DNA from: Acidobacteriota bacterium
GTDB lineage: Bacteria; Acidobacteriota; Terriglobia; Terriglobales; Acidobacteriaceae
DNA: 64,000 nucleotides
Direction of reading: 5' to 3'
Assembly (NCBI GenBank): GCA_003225555.1
Contig: QIAM01000006.1
Location: 124,001 to 188,000 of the forward strand
This document shows, one piece after another, positions 32,552-58,951 of this stretch. A program made the translations under genes and the position numbers. The stretch's first letter is position 1. Each line of letters starts with the position of its first letter. The notes under the pieces are model-generated. The model saw only the letters and a list, made by a program, of their open reading frames with translations. It searched no databases and had not been told where the DNA came from.

Positions 32552-33394
32552 CTATCGCAACCAGTCTTCTAGCTCAATTCCGCGATCTGTTTTGTCATCG
32601 CGATACTTCACAATCACGGGCGTGTACAGCGAAAGGTTCCATTCGGTGACTATTCCTTTCTTTGCCGCCCGCGAATTTACTGCGCGTGAGCCGGGCACGA
32701 CCACGGCATCTTCCGGGACTTGGAGAGGCGACTCGGTACTCGCGCGGTAGACTTCGCCACGTACCAGGTCGTAGAGAGGCGTGGAGCGTGTCAGAATCGT
32801 TCCGGCTCCTAGCACGGCCCGCGCGCGAACCAGTGTGCCTTCGTAGACTCCGCAATTGCCGCCGACGAGAACGTCATCTTCGATAATTACCGGCGCGGCG
32901 TTCACGGGCTCGAGCACGCCGCCGATCTGCGCGGCGGCGCTCAGGTGCACGCGCTTTCCAACCTGCGCGCACGAACCGACCAGGGCATGCGAATCTACCA
33001 TCGTTCCCTCGTCCACGTAAGCGCCCACATTGATAAACATGGGAGGCATGCAGATGACCGACGATGCGACGTAGGCTCCGGTGCGGACCGACGATCCGCC
33101 GGGCACGACGCGAACGCGATCGGCGACGGAAAACTGACGGGCAGGGAAGGTGTCTTTGTCGACGAAGGAGAGTCCGGCGGGCATCTCGGCGAGTTCGCCC
33201 AAGCGGAATCCTAGCAGGATGCCCTGCTTCACCCAGGTGTTGACCACCCAGCGGCCGTCAACTTTCTCGGCCGCGCGGATTTTGCCTTGCGTGAGTTCGT
33301 CGCGGAACTTGAGGAAAGTTTCGCGCGCTTCGGGGTTGCGCTCAACTTCGCCCAGAGCTGCTAGGCGCTCGATGGAGGATTTCAGGGAGGACAT
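32552..33394 (-). CDS. dapD: Tetrahydrodipicolinate N-succinyltransferase
   Basis: This 280-residue left-handed beta-helix transferase catalyses the succinylation of tetrahydrodipicolinate, a step of the DAP/lysine route that feeds peptidoglycan. Hexapeptide repeats are visible across residues 100-220, including [26 protein letters not shown]-type segments and [20 protein letters not shown]. The start ATG at 33394 begins at the normal DapD N-terminus; a longer frame extends into a repeat. It is last in the cluster with asd, lysC, dapB and dapA. Confidence 0.95.
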
Positions 33395-33399
33395 GAGAA

Positions 33400-33636
33400 T
33401 TGTTGATTGTCGATTGTTGATTGTTGATTTGTCAAAACAACGGATGAAGGTCGGCCGACGTGCGATCTGAGTGCGGTTGTGATACACGCCAGATCCCTTC
33501 GGCTTCGCTCAGGGCAGGCTCTTCGCTCCGCCTGAAGAACGGCTGTACTCAGGATGACGTCGCGTTGGTGGGAGTGCATCTACCAGACGACGCTGACGAC
33601 GCGGTTTTCAATCAACAATCAAGACTCAACAATCTT
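33400..33636. repeat. Nested intergenic repeats between dapA and dapD
   Basis: A GATTGTTGATT-rich segment (33400-33431) faces an inverted relative, AATCAACAATC (33608-33632). Between them lies a copy (33491-33564) of a second family (CCTGAAGAACGGCTG and AGGATGACG), which recurs at 37733-37805. The arrangement looks like one small element inserted within another. There is no gene in the interval. Confidence 0.55.
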
Positions 33637-34767
33637 CTAGATGCACTTGCACTCGCTGCGGATGAGCACGCCGGTCATGGCGTGGGCTGCTTCGCGGGCT
33701 ACCGACAGAGTTGCATAGGGGCCGTGCCAGCGGGAGTGGTTGGTGTCGTGGCCGGCGGGACGGCCCTTGCCGTGGCTGCATTGGCCGCAGGATCCGCGAT
33801 GCAGAACGATCTTGTGTGGACCGGCGGCCCAGTTCTCGTAGATGTAGAACTCGGCGGCCTCGGCTGCCGGGCCCGCGGGTTTCGTGACCAGTCCAACTTC
33901 GGCGGCGATCTTCTGAAGGCGCGAGCGCGTGTCGCGACGCATCGGCAAAAGCGGCAGGCGGTAAACCTCTTCAATCTTGCCCATCATTGCCAGCACGGCT
34001 TTCACGGGGAGCGGGCTCGACTCGATGAAGTTGGCCTGCATCAGCGGCAGATACTTGCGATGCAGGGTGCGTGCAGTCGTCCAGTCGTTATTCAGCGCGG
34101 CGCGAGTCAGAGATGCCATCTCGTGGGGAATTTCGTTGGAGGCGACGGAAATGATTCCGACTCCCCCGAGCGCGATCACAGGCAGGGTGACCGCGTCATC
34201 GCCCGAGAAGACCAGAAAAGTTTCCGGCACAGCATTGATCGCCTCGGCAATCTGGGTCATGTTGCCGCTGGCTTCTTTCATGCCCACGATGTTGGGAACC
34301 TCGGTCAGGCGCGCCAGGGTTCCGGGTTCAAGGTTTGCGCCGGTGCGGCCGGGTACGTTGTAGAGAATGATGGGCTTGTCGCCGACCGCCTCGGCAATCG
34401 CCCTGAAGTGACGATACTGGCCTTCCTGCGTCGGCTTGTTGTAGTACGGCGACGCGGTGAGAATTGCGCCGACGCCCGGCCTTGCCGCGACCTCTTTCGC
34501 TTTTTCAACCGCATCGTGAGTCGAGTTGGACGTGGCGCCCGCCACAATGGGCACCCGTCCGGCGACGACCTCGATGGTGGTGTCAATCACGTACAACCAT
34601 TCGTCGTGGGTGAGCGTCGGAGTTTCGCCGGTCGTGCCGCAGGGAACAAGAAAATCAATTCCCGACTCGACTTGCCATGTCACCAGGTTGCGCAAGGCAG
34701 CGTCGTCGATGGAGCCATCCTGATGAAAAGGAGTTACGAGTGCGGTGCCACAGCCACGAAGTTGCAT
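33637..34767 (-). CDS. dapA: 4-hydroxy-tetrahydrodipicolinate synthase with C-terminal extra domain
   Basis: Residues 1-295 are a normal DapA barrel that condenses pyruvate with aspartate semialdehyde. The Schiff-base K164 is in VGMKEASGN, Y136 in LYNVPGRTG and T45-T46 in CGTTGET. Usual DapA proteins end near residue 295; this one has about 80 more, beginning AEFYIYENWAAG and holding four Cys (C327, C330, C373, C375) around a GKG/RWHGPYATL core. That tail looks like a small stand-alone domain found elsewhere (recalled, not searched) and may bind a metal. The frame is open and clean to the stop. It lies downstream of a coiled-coil gene and upstream of dapD. Confidence 0.93.
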   Translation of the reverse strand: MQLRGCGTALVTPFHQDGSIDDAALRNLVTWQVESGIDFLVPCGTTGETPTLTHDEWLYVIDTTIEVVAGRVPIVAGATSNSTHDAVEKAKEVAARPGVGAILTASPYYNKPTQEGQYRHFRAIAEAVGDKPIILYNVPGRTGANLEPGTLARLTEVPNIVGMKEASGNMTQIAEAINAVPETFLVFSGDDAVTLPVIALGGVGIISVASNEIPHEMASLTRAALNNDWTTARTLHRKYLPLMQANFIESSPLPVKAVLAMMGKIEEVYRLPLLPMRRDTRSRLQKIAAEVGLVTKPAGPAAEAAEFYIYENWAAGPHKIVLHRGSCGQCSHGKGRPAGHDTNHSRWHGPYATLSVAREAAHAMTGVLIRSECKCI

Positions 34768-34899: not shown

Positions 34900-35433
34900 T
34901 CAACGCGTGGATCGCTCGCTGGGGTTGCCCAGTTTTCTGACGAGATCATCTAACTGGATTTCGAGCGCGTTGAGTTTGTCTTGTTCGGTCCGCAGTTGCT
35001 GTGCGGCCTCTATTTCTGTCGCCTGCCGTTGCTGCTCTACGTCCGTCGAGGCTTCGAGTTCGGATTTGGAATGGTTGATCATATCTCGGAGGTCCTTCTG
35101 TTGCGCCAGGTTCTGTTCGGCGCTTAGCGTGTCCTCCAACTCCTTGATGCGACCCGCTACATGTTTCTGATTAGCTTGCGCGTCGGCGAGCTTCGACCGA
35201 TCGTCGTTTAGGCGTTCCGACGCACGCGTAACAGACCCTTGTTGGGTTTGCAGACGAGATAGCAGAACCTGGGCGCCCTGTATCCTTGCCAGCGAAATCC
35301 GCAAGTCCTGACGAAGCTCGCGAACTTCAGTTAACAGAGCTTGCAGCGTCTGCGAGTCGGATGAAGCGGTCTGACCGAAAGTAGCTCCCGGTATTCCGGA
35401 AACTAAAAGGATGAAAAACAATGCTCGCCGCAT
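34900..35433 (-). CDS. Periplasmic coiled-coil protein inside the dap cluster
   Basis: The 177-residue protein has a signal peptide (ALFFILLVSGIPGATFGQ) followed by a nearly continuous coiled coil (about 25-165) rich in Glu, Gln and Leu. The start at 35433 has GGAGGG 5 bases upstream. I know of no family. It is encoded on the same strand as its neighbours, between dapB and dapA, 132 bases from dapA and 40 bases after dapB, so it is likely co-transcribed with the DAP genes. A role at the cell wall would fit but is unproven. Confidence 0.68.
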   Translation of the reverse strand: MRRALFFILLVSGIPGATFGQTASSDSQTLQALLTEVRELRQDLRISLARIQGAQVLLSRLQTQQGSVTRASERLNDDRSKLADAQANQKHVAGRIKELEDTLSAEQNLAQQKDLRDMINHSKSELEASTDVEQQRQATEIEAAQQLRTEQDKLNALEIQLDDLVRKLGNPSERSTR

Positions 35434-35473
35434 TGCGACCCTCCTCAACCTGCAATTTGCGACTTGGACGAAA

Positions 35474-36157
35474 CTACAACTCCCGCCATACATCCTTAAA
35501 ATCGTAGAAACCCTTCTTGCCTACAATCCACTCGGCCGCGCGCACTGCACCTTCGGCGAAGCTGCGGCGGGAAGTGGCGTCGTGGCAGAGGTAAATTGTG
35601 TCGTTCAGGGACTCGAAGACGACCTCGTGCATACCCACGACCTGGCCTTCGCGGAACGAAGTGATTTCCACACCCTGCTTGCCACTGGCCTCTCGGATCA
35701 CTTGCTGAATCGCAATTGCCGTACCGGAGGGCGCGTCTTGCTTGTGGACGTGATGGCGCTCGAAGATTTGGCCAGTGTAGTCGTGACGCAGGGCGGTAGC
35801 GGCAGTGCGCGCGATGTCGAAAAAGAGATTTACGCCAATCGAGAAGTTTGCAGCGTAGACTAAGCCGGTGCGGTGAACCGTGACGAGTTCGCGAATTCGA
35901 TCAACGTCTTCGTGCCATCCGGTCGTGCCTACGACCAGGTTCTTGCCCGCCTTGACGCAGGCCTCGATGTTGGCGATCACGCAGTGCGGAGTGGTGAAAT
36001 CGACCACGACGGCAACATCGCGGAGCTTGCCGGCGGCGAGCGCCATGCAGTCTGCGTTCTCCGCGGCTCCGGCAACTTGTATGTGATGCTTGCGCTGGCG
36101 CGCAACCTCTGCCACCAGCGATCCGGTTTTGCCGCGGCCGAGCAGGAGGAGGTTCAT
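35474..36157 (-). CDS. dapB: 4-hydroxy-tetrahydrodipicolinate reductase
   Basis: This 227-residue enzyme reduces the DapA product with NAD(P)H. Motifs seen are the N-terminal GRGKTGSLV nucleotide site, the VVGTTGW segment and the catalytic/substrate segment ERHHVHKQDAPSGTA with its Lys. It is about 15-40 residues shorter than common bacterial DapB, like the compact form seen in several phyla. It is part of the asd-lysC-dapB-dapA-dapD series on the minus strand. Confidence 0.95.
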   Translation of the reverse strand: MNLLLLGRGKTGSLVAEVARQRKHHIQVAGAAENADCMALAAGKLRDVAVVVDFTTPHCVIANIEACVKAGKNLVVGTTGWHEDVDRIRELVTVHRTGLVYAANFSIGVNLFFDIARTAATALRHDYTGQIFERHHVHKQDAPSGTAIAIQQVIREASGKQGVEITSFREGQVVGMHEVVFESLNDTIYLCHDATSRRSFAEGAVRAAEWIVGKKGFYDFKDVWREL

Positions 36158-36283: not shown

Positions 36284-37657
36284 CTATGCGAACACTTCGG
36301 GATCTAGTTCCGCGAAAAAGGTCTTGTGCAGGCGCTGGATTACCTCGGGCACTTCGTCTTCTTCGATCACGAAGGTCAGATTAATTTCGGAGGCTCCCTG
36401 GGAAATCATGCGAATTTTCTTGTCGGCAAGCTCGCGAAAGACGAGTCCCGCGATTCCTGGCTTCTGCCGCAGGTTTTCGCCCACCAGGCAGACAATGGCT
36501 TTACGGCCTTCATATTTTACGTCGGCCAACTTGGCTAGATCGGCGGCCAGGGCGGGGATGGCCTGATTCGAATCTACGGTGACGGAAACGCTGACCTCGG
36601 AGGTCGAGACCACATCGACCGCAACTTTGTGGCGGTCGAAGGCCTCAAAGATCGCCCGCAGGAATCCGTGGGCCAGCAGCATCCGGGGAGCAGCCACGTC
36701 GACGATGGTGATGCGCTTTTTCGCGGCGATGGCCTTGAAAATATTTTTGCCTTGCGGCGCGCGCGTGGTAATTCGCGTTCCCTCACAAGAAGGATTGCAG
36801 GAGTTCAGCACGTACACAGGGATGTTCTTTTGAATGGCGGGCAGCACGGTGGCTGGATGCAGCACCTTGGCGCCGAAATACGCCAGTTCTGCAGCTTCGT
36901 CGAAGCTGATGACTTTAATTCTCCGGGCATCCGGACAGATTCTGGGATCGGTGGTAAGAATGCCGTCCACGTCCGTCCAGATCTCGATCTTCTCTGCGGC
37001 CAGCCCCGCGCCGAAGATCGCTGCCGAGAAATCCGATCCGCCACGGCCGATGGTCGTCGTGATTCCTGCGCGATTGGCTCCGATGAATCCACCCATGACG
37101 GGCACCTGCCCGGAATCGAGCAGTGGCGTCACTTTCTCTTGCAGACGGGCGTTGGTCTCCTCATAGTGCGGGATGGCTGACATGTAGGCGCTGTCAGTGA
37201 TCAAAACTTCGCGGGAGTCTACATGCGCGCCTTTGAGGCCACGCGCGGCGAATGCGGCGGCCACGATGCGGCTGGAAAGCACTTCGCCGAAGGAGGCAAC
37301 GTGGTCCGTGGTGCGCGGGGTGATCTCGCCCACGGCTGCGATTCCGCGCAGGAGTTCGTCCAGCGCCTCGAATTCCGCGCCCAGTTCGGAATGAAATTCG
37401 GTAAATAGCGCGGTCCCCAGCAGTTCGCTGGCAGTGTTGTAATGACGCTCCTGCAGCGAGCGGCAGAGCTTGAGCGCGGTCTTGCGTTCACCTTCTCCGG
37501 CGGCCCGGGCCATGGTCAGCAGGGTGTCGGTGACTTTGGCCATTGCGCTGACCACGACTACTGGCTGTTTGGCCAGGCGTCCCTCGACGATGGAAGCAAC
37601 GCGGTCGATGGCCTTCGCGTCTTCTACGGAAGTGCCACCAAACTTCATCACGATCAT
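36284..37657 (-). CDS. lysC: Aspartate kinase
   Basis: The 457-residue enzyme phosphorylates aspartate, the first step for lysine, threonine and methionine. It opens with the signature VMKFGGTSVED, has a glycine-rich ITTIGRGGSDFSAA, and ends with two ACT-type regulatory segments (about 300-457, with VVSTSEVSVSVTVD and MISQGASEINLTFVIE) that bind the feedback inhibitor. There is no homoserine dehydrogenase fusion. It sits between asd and dapB; repeats fill the gaps. Confidence 0.95.
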   Translation of the reverse strand: MIVMKFGGTSVEDAKAIDRVASIVEGRLAKQPVVVVSAMAKVTDTLLTMARAAGEGERKTALKLCRSLQERHYNTASELLGTALFTEFHSELGAEFEALDELLRGIAAVGEITPRTTDHVASFGEVLSSRIVAAAFAARGLKGAHVDSREVLITDSAYMSAIPHYEETNARLQEKVTPLLDSGQVPVMGGFIGANRAGITTTIGRGGSDFSAAIFGAGLAAEKIEIWTDVDGILTTDPRICPDARRIKVISFDEAAELAYFGAKVLHPATVLPAIQKNIPVYVLNSCNPSCEGTRITTRAPQGKNIFKAIAAKKRITIVDVAAPRMLLAHGFLRAIFEAFDRHKVAVDVVSTSEVSVSVTVDSNQAIPALAADLAKLADVKYEGRKAIVCLVGENLRQKPGIAGLVFRELADKKIRMISQGASEINLTFVIEEDEVPEVIQRLHKTFFAELDPEVFA

Positions 37658-37732: not shown

Positions 37733-37805
37733 AGATCCTTCGCTCCCCCTGAAGAACGGCTGGGCTCAGAGCCTGCCCTGAGCTTGCCGAAGGGATGACG
37801 CCGCG
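37733..37805. repeat. Dispersed CCTGAAGAACGGCTG repeat
   Basis: The unit is related to 33491-33564: both contain CTTCGCTCC-C-CCTGAAGAACGGCTG and finish with GATGACG-CGCG. It sits in the gap between asd and lysC. The inner part (CCTGCCCTGAGCTTGCC) differs in order between copies, so one copy is rearranged. Confidence 0.55.
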
Positions 37806-37859: not shown

Positions 37860-38912
37860 TCATCCCAGGTAGCCCTTGGCCTTCAGCAGTTCCGCATTCA
37901 GCACGGCCGCCCCGGCGGCGCCACGAATGGTGTTGTGCGAGAGCACGGTAAACTTCCAGTCGAGCACGCCGCAGGGACGCAGCCTTCCGACGGCCGTGGT
38001 CATGCCGGCGCCGAGATCGATATCGAAACGCGGCTGCGGCCGGTCGCTAGCGCTGAGATACACCACCGGTCGCTCGGGCGCGCTGGGAAGCTTCAACTCC
38101 TGGGGTTCGGCGCGGTAACTGCTCCAGGCAGCGATGATCTCGTCCGCCTTGGCTTTGGTTTTCAAGCGCACCGAGACTGACTCGGTGTGTCCATCTTCGA
38201 CGGCGACGCGGTTGCATTGCGCGCTCATAGCAAAGGCGCCGGGGATCACTTTCGATCCATTCAGCTGGCCGAGCAACTTGCGGGTTTCCTCCTCCATCTT
38301 TTCTTCCTCGTTGCGGATGAAGGGAATCACATTGCCCAGGATGTCGAGCGAGGCGACGCCGGGATATCCTGCGCCGCTGACGGCCTGCATGGTCACAGCC
38401 ATCACCGTGTCCAGTTCAAAGCGCTGGTGCAGAGGCACCAACGCCAGCACCAGCCCAATCGCAGAGCAGTTGGGATTGGTCACAACAAAGCCGCCGGACT
38501 TTTTGCGCCAGCCCTGTACGTCGATCAGCTTGATGTGGCCGCCGTTGACTTCAGGAATAACCAGGGGCACGTCGGACTGCATGCGCAAGGCGCTGGAGTT
38601 GGAGACCACGGCGCAGCCGGCATCGGCAAAGCGCGGCTCCATTTCGGCCGCGATCGATGCATCGAGTGCGGCGAAGATCACTTTGGGCGCGCCATCCGGT
38701 ATGGCGGGAGAGACTTTCATGGAAGCCACGGCGGGCGGAATCGCTGTCCTCAGCCGCCACTTCGCGGCCTCGGCATAGGTCTTGCCCTCGGAACGGTCGG
38801 AGGCGGCCAGCCAGGCCACTTCGAACCACGGGTGCCGCTCCAGCATCTGGATAAACCGCTGTCCGACGACACCGGTAGCGCCAAGAATACCGACAGAAAT
38901 CTTGTTGCTCAT
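37860..38912 (-). CDS. asd: Aspartate-semialdehyde dehydrogenase
   Basis: This 350-residue enzyme reduces aspartyl phosphate to the semialdehyde. Features are the Rossmann start VGILGATGVVGQRF, the catalytic C149 in VTNPNCSAIGL, and GAGYPG. The NPNCSAIG form is that of the archaeal/fungal-like ASADH subgroup rather than the enterobacterial one. It heads the aspartate-family cluster. A 84-base palindromic repeat lies just upstream at 38995-39078 and may affect its promoter. Confidence 0.95.
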   Translation of the reverse strand: MSNKISVGILGATGVVGQRFIQMLERHPWFEVAWLAASDRSEGKTYAEAAKWRLRTAIPPAVASMKVSPAIPDGAPKVIFAALDASIAAEMEPRFADAGCAVVSNSSALRMQSDVPLVIPEVNGGHIKLIDVQGWRKKSGGFVVTNPNCSAIGLVLALVPLHQRFELDTVMAVTMQAVSGAGYPGVASLDILGNVIPFIRNEEEKMEEETRKLLGQLNGSKVIPGAFAMSAQCNRVAVEDGHTESVSVRLKTKAKADEIIAAWSSYRAEPQELKLPSAPERPVVYLSASDRPQPRFDIDLGAGMTTAVGRLRPCGVLDWKFTVLSHNTIRGAAGAAVLNAELLKAKGYLG

Positions 38913-38994
38913 AGGGTACTTGGGATTTTACAACACCCTTTTACTTATGACTTGCGGGAGGCGCTTTCATACCGCAGCATCAGCACTAACGCCT

Positions 38995-39078
38995 TGTCAT
39001 CCTGAGCAACGCGAAGGACCTATGCACTTTGACGACGCCAGCAACCTACATAGGTCCTTCGCTTCGCTCAGGATGACA
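38995..39078. repeat. 84-base palindromic element (GTCATCCTGAGC family)
   Basis: Arms of 30 bases, TGTCATCCTGAGC...GGACCTATG (38995-39024) and its near-perfect complement (39049-39078), surround a 24-base spacer. The copy at 56370-56453 is also exactly 84 bases long. It has no coding content and is MITE-like in shape. Confidence 0.8.
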
Positions 39079-39094
39079 ACCAAAAGCCAAGCGT

Positions 39095-57450: not shown

Positions 57451-57828
57451 CTATACCGCCATCTTCCCCAGCCACTGCCGGCTCGCCGGCCGGGTCAAAT
57501 AAGAAATCAGAAGGAAGACCAGCAACACCAGCGGCGCAAATGCCCTCGGCCCATCTTTAGCCAAATAGTGTGCAATAAACGCCGAGATCCATGCGAAAGT
57601 GAAGCCCGCGTAGGCCCACTCCTTGACCTTCGGGAAGCCAGGAACAACAAGCGCGATCGCGCCCAGGAGTTTCGCGACTCCAAGAATGCCCCGGAGCTGT
57701 TGCGGATATCCGACGTGTGCGAACCCTTCAACCACCTGCTGCGAACCCGTCAGGTAACTGAATCCGGCGAACGCGGACATGGCCGCAATCAGGATGGTGG
57801 TGACCCAGTAAGTTATTGTGCGCGCCAT
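57451..57828 (-). CDS. DoxX-like membrane protein
   Basis: This 125-residue protein has four membrane helices and the DoxX-type pattern: SAFAGFSYLTG, GYPQQLRGILGVAKLLGAIALVVPG, and EWAYAGFTFAWISAFIAHY. DoxX relatives are often tied to redox or terminal-oxidase functions but the role is not settled. It is alone, convergent with the UbiA gene. Confidence 0.88.
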   Translation of the reverse strand: MARTITYWVTTILIAAMSAFAGFSYLTGSQQVVEGFAHVGYPQQLRGILGVAKLLGAIALVVPGFPKVKEWAYAGFTFAWISAFIAHYLAKDGPRAFAPLVLLVFLLISYLTRPASRQWLGKMAV

Positions 57829-58012
57829 CGGTTGTATTCTCCTCAGCTGGCAAAATACCAGTTCTGATGGCGGATGAGTGGAGGCGATTCAGTTTTTGTG
57901 CAGGGCTGAGGCGACCGAATCTGCGTCGACTCCCCTGCGCAGGGTCTCGACCTCGACCCCTTACCACCCTCCGCACCACGTGCCATAATCTGTGGTGACA
58001 ATCGGAGGCCTC

Positions 58013-58951
58013 ATGCGCAGCATCATTCTCGCGGTATTCTTTTTGATCTGTCTTTCCTGGACGCAGCAACCGACGCAGCCGCCGCAATCCCGGGCCGCGG
58101 CGGGCTCTCCGGCCGATCTCGTCAAGCAAGGCGAGAAACTAAACAGTGAAGGCAAGCAGGACCAGGCATTAGCCCTGTACAAAAAAGCCCTCAAAGCGGA
58201 TCCTGCACTCTACGAAGCCCATCTTGACTCCGGCATTGCTCTCGACCTCAAAGGAAACTACGCCGAAGCGCGCGAACATTTCGCCCAGGCGCTCAGCCTT
58301 GCGCCTGCCGATTCCAAGCAGCAGGCCCTGCGCGCCACGGCCATGTCCTATGCGTTTGAGGGCAAAGCTGACGAAGCCGCCAAGTTCGAGCAACAGGTCT
58401 TCGACCAACGCCTGGCGAAGAATGATTTCATCGCTGCCGGTGAAACGGCCAACGAACTCGCTCGCATCTATCTCGAATCGGGCGACACCGGACACGCCTT
58501 CAACTTGTACAAGCTCGGCTACGACACCGCTTTACGCAAGCCCGACCTTACCGACGCGGACAAAAATCTGTGGTTGTTCCGCTGGGAGAACGCGCAAGCC
58601 CGCATCGCCGCCCGCCGCGGCAAAGCCGACGAAGCCCGCGAGCACGTAGCCGCCGCCAAAGTTGCTCTCGACAAAGCGAACAATCCCGACCAGGCCCGCT
58701 TTTATCCGTATCTGACCGGCTACGTAGCGTTTTATACCGGCGACTACAAGACCGCCATCGCGGATCTGCAAAAAGCGGACCAGCGCGATCCTCTGATTCT
58801 GGCGCTGCTGGGTGAGGCCTACGAGCAATCGGGCGACAAGGCGCACGCCACGGAGTACTACCGCAAAGCGTTGGCCTCCAGCGGGCACAATCCCACGAAC
58901 GCCTTCGCCCGTCCGTTGGTCAGAAAGAAGCTGGCGGGCGGAGGGTCTTAG
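58013..58951 (+). CDS. Secreted TPR protein
   Basis: The product (312 aa) has a signal peptide (MRSIILAVFFLICLSWTQ) and a series of tetratricopeptide repeats: GEKLNSEGKQDQALALYKKALKADP, AHLDSGIALDLKGNYAEAREHFAQALSL, then more with imperfect spacing to the end. The start at 58013 has GGAGG 5 bases upstream. The repeats suggest a protein-binding scaffold in the periplasm. No specific partner is seen. Confidence 0.82.
   Translation: MRSIILAVFFLICLSWTQQPTQPPQSRAAAGSPADLVKQGEKLNSEGKQDQALALYKKALKADPALYEAHLDSGIALDLKGNYAEAREHFAQALSLAPADSKQQALRATAMSYAFEGKADEAAKFEQQVFDQRLAKNDFIAAGETANELARIYLESGDTGHAFNLYKLGYDTALRKPDLTDADKNLWLFRWENAQARIAARRGKADEAREHVAAAKVALDKANNPDQARFYPYLTGYVAFYTGDYKTAIADLQKADQRDPLILALLGEAYEQSGDKAHATEYYRKALASSGHNPTNAFARPLVRKKLAGGGS

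Follow-up and report, generated by a model that had tools for sequence, protein, structure and literature searches.

The dapA locus

The window, by which the whole stretch of 64,000 nucleotides analysed here is meant, carries on one strand the gene order asd-lysC-dapB-(hypothetical)-dapA-dapD (Table 1). Its dapA open reading frame runs on the minus strand from position 34767 to 33637 and comprises 376 codons and a stop codon with no internal stop, in agreement with the lesion-free frame described in an earlier note made from the sequence, to whose description only the orientation is added here. That note had also claimed a DapA core with K164, Y136 and T45-T46, followed by about 80 extra residues, and both statements hold. 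PF00701 matches residues 3-288 (E 4.5e-87, 291.9 bits versus a cut-off of 22.1) and the DapA model TIGR00674 residues 8-289 (326.4 bits versus a curated cut-off of 206.15), the catalytic set of Schiff-base lysine and Thr-Tyr-Arg residues is complete, including R141, and the extension runs from about residue 293 to 376. By equivalog score and catalytic residues the first 292 residues are thus an ordinary DapA. The cysteines C327, C330, C373 and C375, the segment AEFYIYENWAAG and the RWHGPYATL core of the extension were all found at the positions given before.

Table 1. Features of the dapA region (positions in the window)
Feature	Position	Strand	Basis
asd	37860..38912	-	TIGR00978 above cut-off
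lysC, aspartokinase	36284..37657	-	NF006570 above cut-off
dapB	35474..36157	-	TIGR00036 above cut-off
DapA core (4-hydroxy-tetrahydrodipicolinate synthase), residues 1-292	33892..34767	-	PF00701 and TIGR00674 above curated cut-offs; T45, T46, Y136, R141, K164
Variable Ala/Pro-rich linker, residues 293-305	33853..33891	-	mean pairwise identity 0.47, dN/dS 0.28
C-terminal H-x3-C-x2-C...W-x-G-P...C-x-C domain, residues 306-376	33640..33852	-	38 distinct fused DapA, AlphaFold2 model, stand-alone relatives
Signature residues of the tail domain			H323, C327, C330, W347, C373, C375
Stop codon TAG	33637..33639	-	
dapD	32552..33487	-	NF008808 above cut-off

The tail-bearing DapA is the only protein found in the draft genome above the TIGR00674 equivalog cut-off of 206 bits. 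The PF00701 paralog that comes second reaches 153.7 bits against this model, and two weaker paralogs, scored against PF00701 only, stay below 60 bits to PF00701. One DapA-family paralog of the source genome has an insertion within the core (L052; contig C1 of G000, 57544-58644). The tail alone matches a single place in the source genome, and no separate intact tail gene was found there. The order asd-lysC-dapB-dapA-dapD is common to relatives with fused and with plain DapA (in the region read from one of them, G047, dapA alone was found), and sister genera have the same cluster with a tail-less DapA, so that the fused gene occupies the operon position of its tail-less orthologues and the tail is dispensable for the pathway.

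Several further elements of the region were recorded. DapB has 227 residues and its best stretch fits TIGR00036 from position 47, its N-terminal part being apparently shortened. Between dapB and dapA an ORF of 197 residues (34900-35493) is coiled-coil-like and without a match in NCBIfam at E 1e-5; tblastn did not find it in eleven related dapA regions (L118-L128). A 32-nt direct repeat, 91% identical, lies in the dapA-dapD spacer (33521-33552) and in the lysC-asd spacer (37738-37769) and possibly belongs to a dispersed intergenic element, and upstream of asd a 38-nt imperfect palindrome (38994-39079; TTGTCATCCTGAGC.../...GCTCAGGATGACAA) is REP- or MITE-like.

Spread and conservation of the tail

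The 72-residue tail was found in 41 of 44 congeneric genomes at 82-92% identity (E 1e-40 to 1e-46). As to the remaining three, the dapA of G031 meets the contig end before the tail, and the drafts of G002 and G018 show no dapA. Among 100 relatives, seven other genera of the family also have the tail, with identities of at least 59%. Of 300 sampled genomes of the family, 85, belonging to 33 of the 79 genera, contain a tail match; four of these genomes (G218, G992, G1009 and G1013) have distant matches that are not DapA fusions, leaving about 81 with a tail of high identity. Most of these tails lie in frames of DapA size, as read for a sample. All matches read among these are DapA fusions except that of G1098, whose contig begins within the tail. 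The fused-DapA tail domain thereby spans about 30 genera, and several close relatives of the genomes that encode it have a plain, tail-less DapA. Two complete genes for fused DapA are present in one genome of the family (G1049), each on a contig of its own (L158, L159). The rest of the phylum gave weak tail matches only; those of G083 (E 2.6e-4) and L034-L038 were rejected on inspection as chance or non-coding, and L039, L040 and L076-L082 were left out of that inspection. The identical architecture, in one open frame and in dozens of independent genomes, makes a read-through, a frameshift or an assembly artefact practically inconceivable. The earlier note had set against a fusion the case that most related DapA proteins lack the tail and that a separate gene or a read-through error explains it; nearly all congeners have the tail, and neither a separate gene nor a read-through accounts for it.

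The tail is well conserved. Among 38 distinct fused proteins H323, C327, W347, H348, C373 and C375 are invariant and C330 is present in 37, the exception being G054 with Tyr at this position. Core, linker and tail have mean pairwise identities of 0.84, 0.47 and 0.78, respectively. Their median dN/dS ratios among near relatives are 0.055, 0.28 and 0.074 in the same order, values that are rough as dS is near 1. As judged by these ratios the tail is under purifying selection, at a dN/dS close to that of the core. In G048 and G054 the linker consists of about 100 low-complexity residues rich in Ala, Pro and Glu. A variable linker followed by a constant end domain is what would be expected of an independently folded, tethered module.

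Does this module belong to a known family? Residues 306-376 reach the cut-off of no model in Pfam, NCBIfam, PHROGs or PADLOC, and the PDB holds no relative of the tail that was detectable by sequence or fold. The best 60 of 103 matches to solved DapA/DHDPS structures, with chains of 289-330 residues, align over the core only (query end at most 297). With the DapA/DHDPS family (PF00701, TIGR00674) the protein shares the complete core, the catalytic residues and the operon context, but it differs by the 71-residue Cys domain. By eye, the Ada metal-binding domain (PF02805) has a similar order of [C/H]-x3-C, aromatic strand, A-rich helix and terminal Cys pair; as parent fold it was rejected, with an hhalign probability of 0.7% over 9 columns and no Pfam match. 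DUF6233 (PF19746) matches the C-terminal half of some stand-alone relatives of the tail below threshold (14.8 bits as the best of the single-member scores listed, versus a cut-off of 27.6); identity with this family was likewise rejected, the stand-alone members scored there being below the curated cut-off and the DapA tail itself without match. A phage origin was also rejected, as phages and viral contigs gave no tail match and a BFVD fold search was not significant. The open-access literature yielded nothing relevant on a DapA that carries an additional domain or a zinc domain.

AlphaFold2 modelled the tail alone with fair confidence from 18 aligned sequences (pLDDT 83.8, pTM 0.75), predicting two strands, a loop with C-x2-C, a strand, a helix and a last strand followed by C-x-C. 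Comparison of this model with the PDB by Foldseek gave no match at E <0.001, VIA-align Z values did not exceed 3.1, and no known zinc fold was found. The full-length AlphaFold2 model, based on a 15-row alignment, is poor (pLDDT 62.5).

Free-standing relatives and origin of the fusion

The earlier note had likened the tail to a stand-alone small domain and proposed a search with the tail alone, and this search did yield stand-alone matches with conserved cysteines, which supports a fusion. Proteins of about 70 residues with the signature H-x3-C-x2-C...W...C-x(1,2)-C are encoded in Mesorhizobium, Sphingobium, Marinicaulis, Spirosoma and an unclassified MAG, in further Alphaproteobacteria and in the class of that MAG, and one (L156) occurs inside the same acidobacterial family. 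Nearest to the tail is L114, with 57% identity over 70 residues. The stand-alone family is rare, the domain being present in 5 of 289 alphaproteobacterial genomes at E 1e-4. When 16 diverse members are aligned, the His, C-x2-C and Trp are invariant, and by alignment and tree the DapA tail carries the family signature, in which H-x3-C-x2-C, W and a terminal pair of Cys are spread across about 70 residues. Free-standing proteins such as L114, L058, L061, L066 and L156, for which no library model reaches its cut-off either, resemble the tail over its whole length, with WxGP in most of them; unlike the tailed DapA they are single-domain, and most end in C-x2-C, whereas the DapA tail, L114 and L066 end in C-x-C. 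In the homologue L117 a His stands at the third Cys position. Since G054 has Tyr for C330 and the last Cys is absent from two divergent acidobacterial relatives (L154, L155), the four-Cys site is not universal.

The neighbourhoods of the stand-alone genes read so far look accessory. One relative lies on a conjugative plasmid of Bradyrhizobium that also encodes an integrase, the neighbourhood read in L058 has an integrase-like and an Abi-like ORF and that in L066 an ATPase-like ORF (named by eye), and the copy in G620 lies in the stretch after glmU-glmS (named by eye). The domain also occurs in other fusions, both read by eye: in G557, an alphaproteobacterial genome, as the C-terminus of a transposase-like protein (L116:1465-2829), and in G218 as a distant copy that forms the N-terminal end of a protein of 290 residues in which a membrane segment is likely (L047:4557-5429). 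The latter gene adjoins pilin-like genes, and the DapA of G218 itself is plain.

How often did DapA acquire the domain? In the tree of DapA cores the fused proteins fall into two groups, with the plain DapA of G047 and of G171/G218 beside the smaller one, and the label fused or plain changes twice. With this minimum of two changes, two gains (two changes) and one gain with two losses (three changes) are both close. The tail-domain tree unites the 16 DapA tails (94/96); the long-branched membrane-protein copy of G218 falls among them, and the free-standing L114 is their neighbour. The DapA tails as one clade are not rejected (p-AU 0.117). One fusion event followed by losses is the reading we prefer on these trees, although they do not amount to proof.

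Possible roles of the tail

What could such a domain contribute to DapA? In the synthesis of lysine and cell-wall precursors DapA is among the best-studied enzymes, and its feedback by lysine is textbook knowledge; the enzyme is known, the domain architecture is new. The small Cys/His domain joined to DapA by a flexible linker is probably a tethered zinc-binding accessory module whose surface would serve binding or regulation and not catalysis. With its small size, its Cys quartet and invariant His, and the Cys-to-His swap in L117, a type of exchange typical of metal ligands, the domain looks as if built around a structural metal site, probably for zinc, and as far as can be judged from such residue patterns metal binding by the tail is plausible. 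Most likely the tail folds round one structural zinc held by C327, C330, C373 and C375, in which H323 may support or substitute for one of the Cys ligands. The DapA tetramer would then carry four such tethered modules, and these would add a surface for binding or regulation and have no part in catalysis. As plain DapA serves in the same cluster of sister genera, the tail probably adds something other than catalysis. In the compared proteins no link between the tail and lysine-site residues was seen; at position 54 those fusions of the large group that were compared have His and the long-linker pair has Arg, and either residue also occurs in plain DapA.

A binding or regulatory surface is judged most likely; docking to a pathway enzyme is considered possible, and a redox switch is given a lower probability. 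The earlier note had suggested that the tail joins DapA to another enzyme of the cluster; such docking would keep DapA bound to a partner from the aspartate/lysine cluster and allow substrates to be channelled. The long-lived fusion, the purifying selection and the conserved asd-lysC-dapB-dapA-dapD cluster would agree with such a role, but the sister genera have the same cluster with a tail-less DapA and no lysine genes adjoin the stand-alone relatives in the neighbourhoods that were read, so docking was not borne out and is considered improbable. A domain kept as a mere passenger, for protein stability or by chance and without specific role, is somewhat less probable still: a known phenotype is lacking and several close relatives do without the tail, but the dN/dS of 0.074 and the invariant residues across about 30 genera argue for selection on the sequence. 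The other suggestion of the earlier note, a redox sensor, would have the C-x2-C and C-x-C pairs form disulfides on oxidation and alter DapA activity, such that lysine synthesis follows the redox state. The four conserved and paired cysteines are what such a switch would use; however, metal ligation accounts better for the invariant H323 and for the His that replaces a Cys in L117, the signature is also found on unrelated proteins such as the transposase-like one, and neither Foldseek nor VIA-align matched a known redox fold. Specific support for this suggestion was not found, and it appears the least probable of these alternatives.

A more far-reaching version of the tethered zinc module, which we regard as speculative and rather unlikely in its entirety, is that the domain represents an undescribed small metal-binding family, spread between phyla as an accessory gene. 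An acidobacterial ancestor would have joined it to DapA a single time, and as an allosteric or docking module it would regulate the flow into lysine and diaminopimelate synthesis in response to a signal, a metal or a partner, that no other DapA is known to use. The tail of this DapA is in any case a defined and testable example of a small Cys domain that was captured by a central enzyme and selected across about 30 genera.
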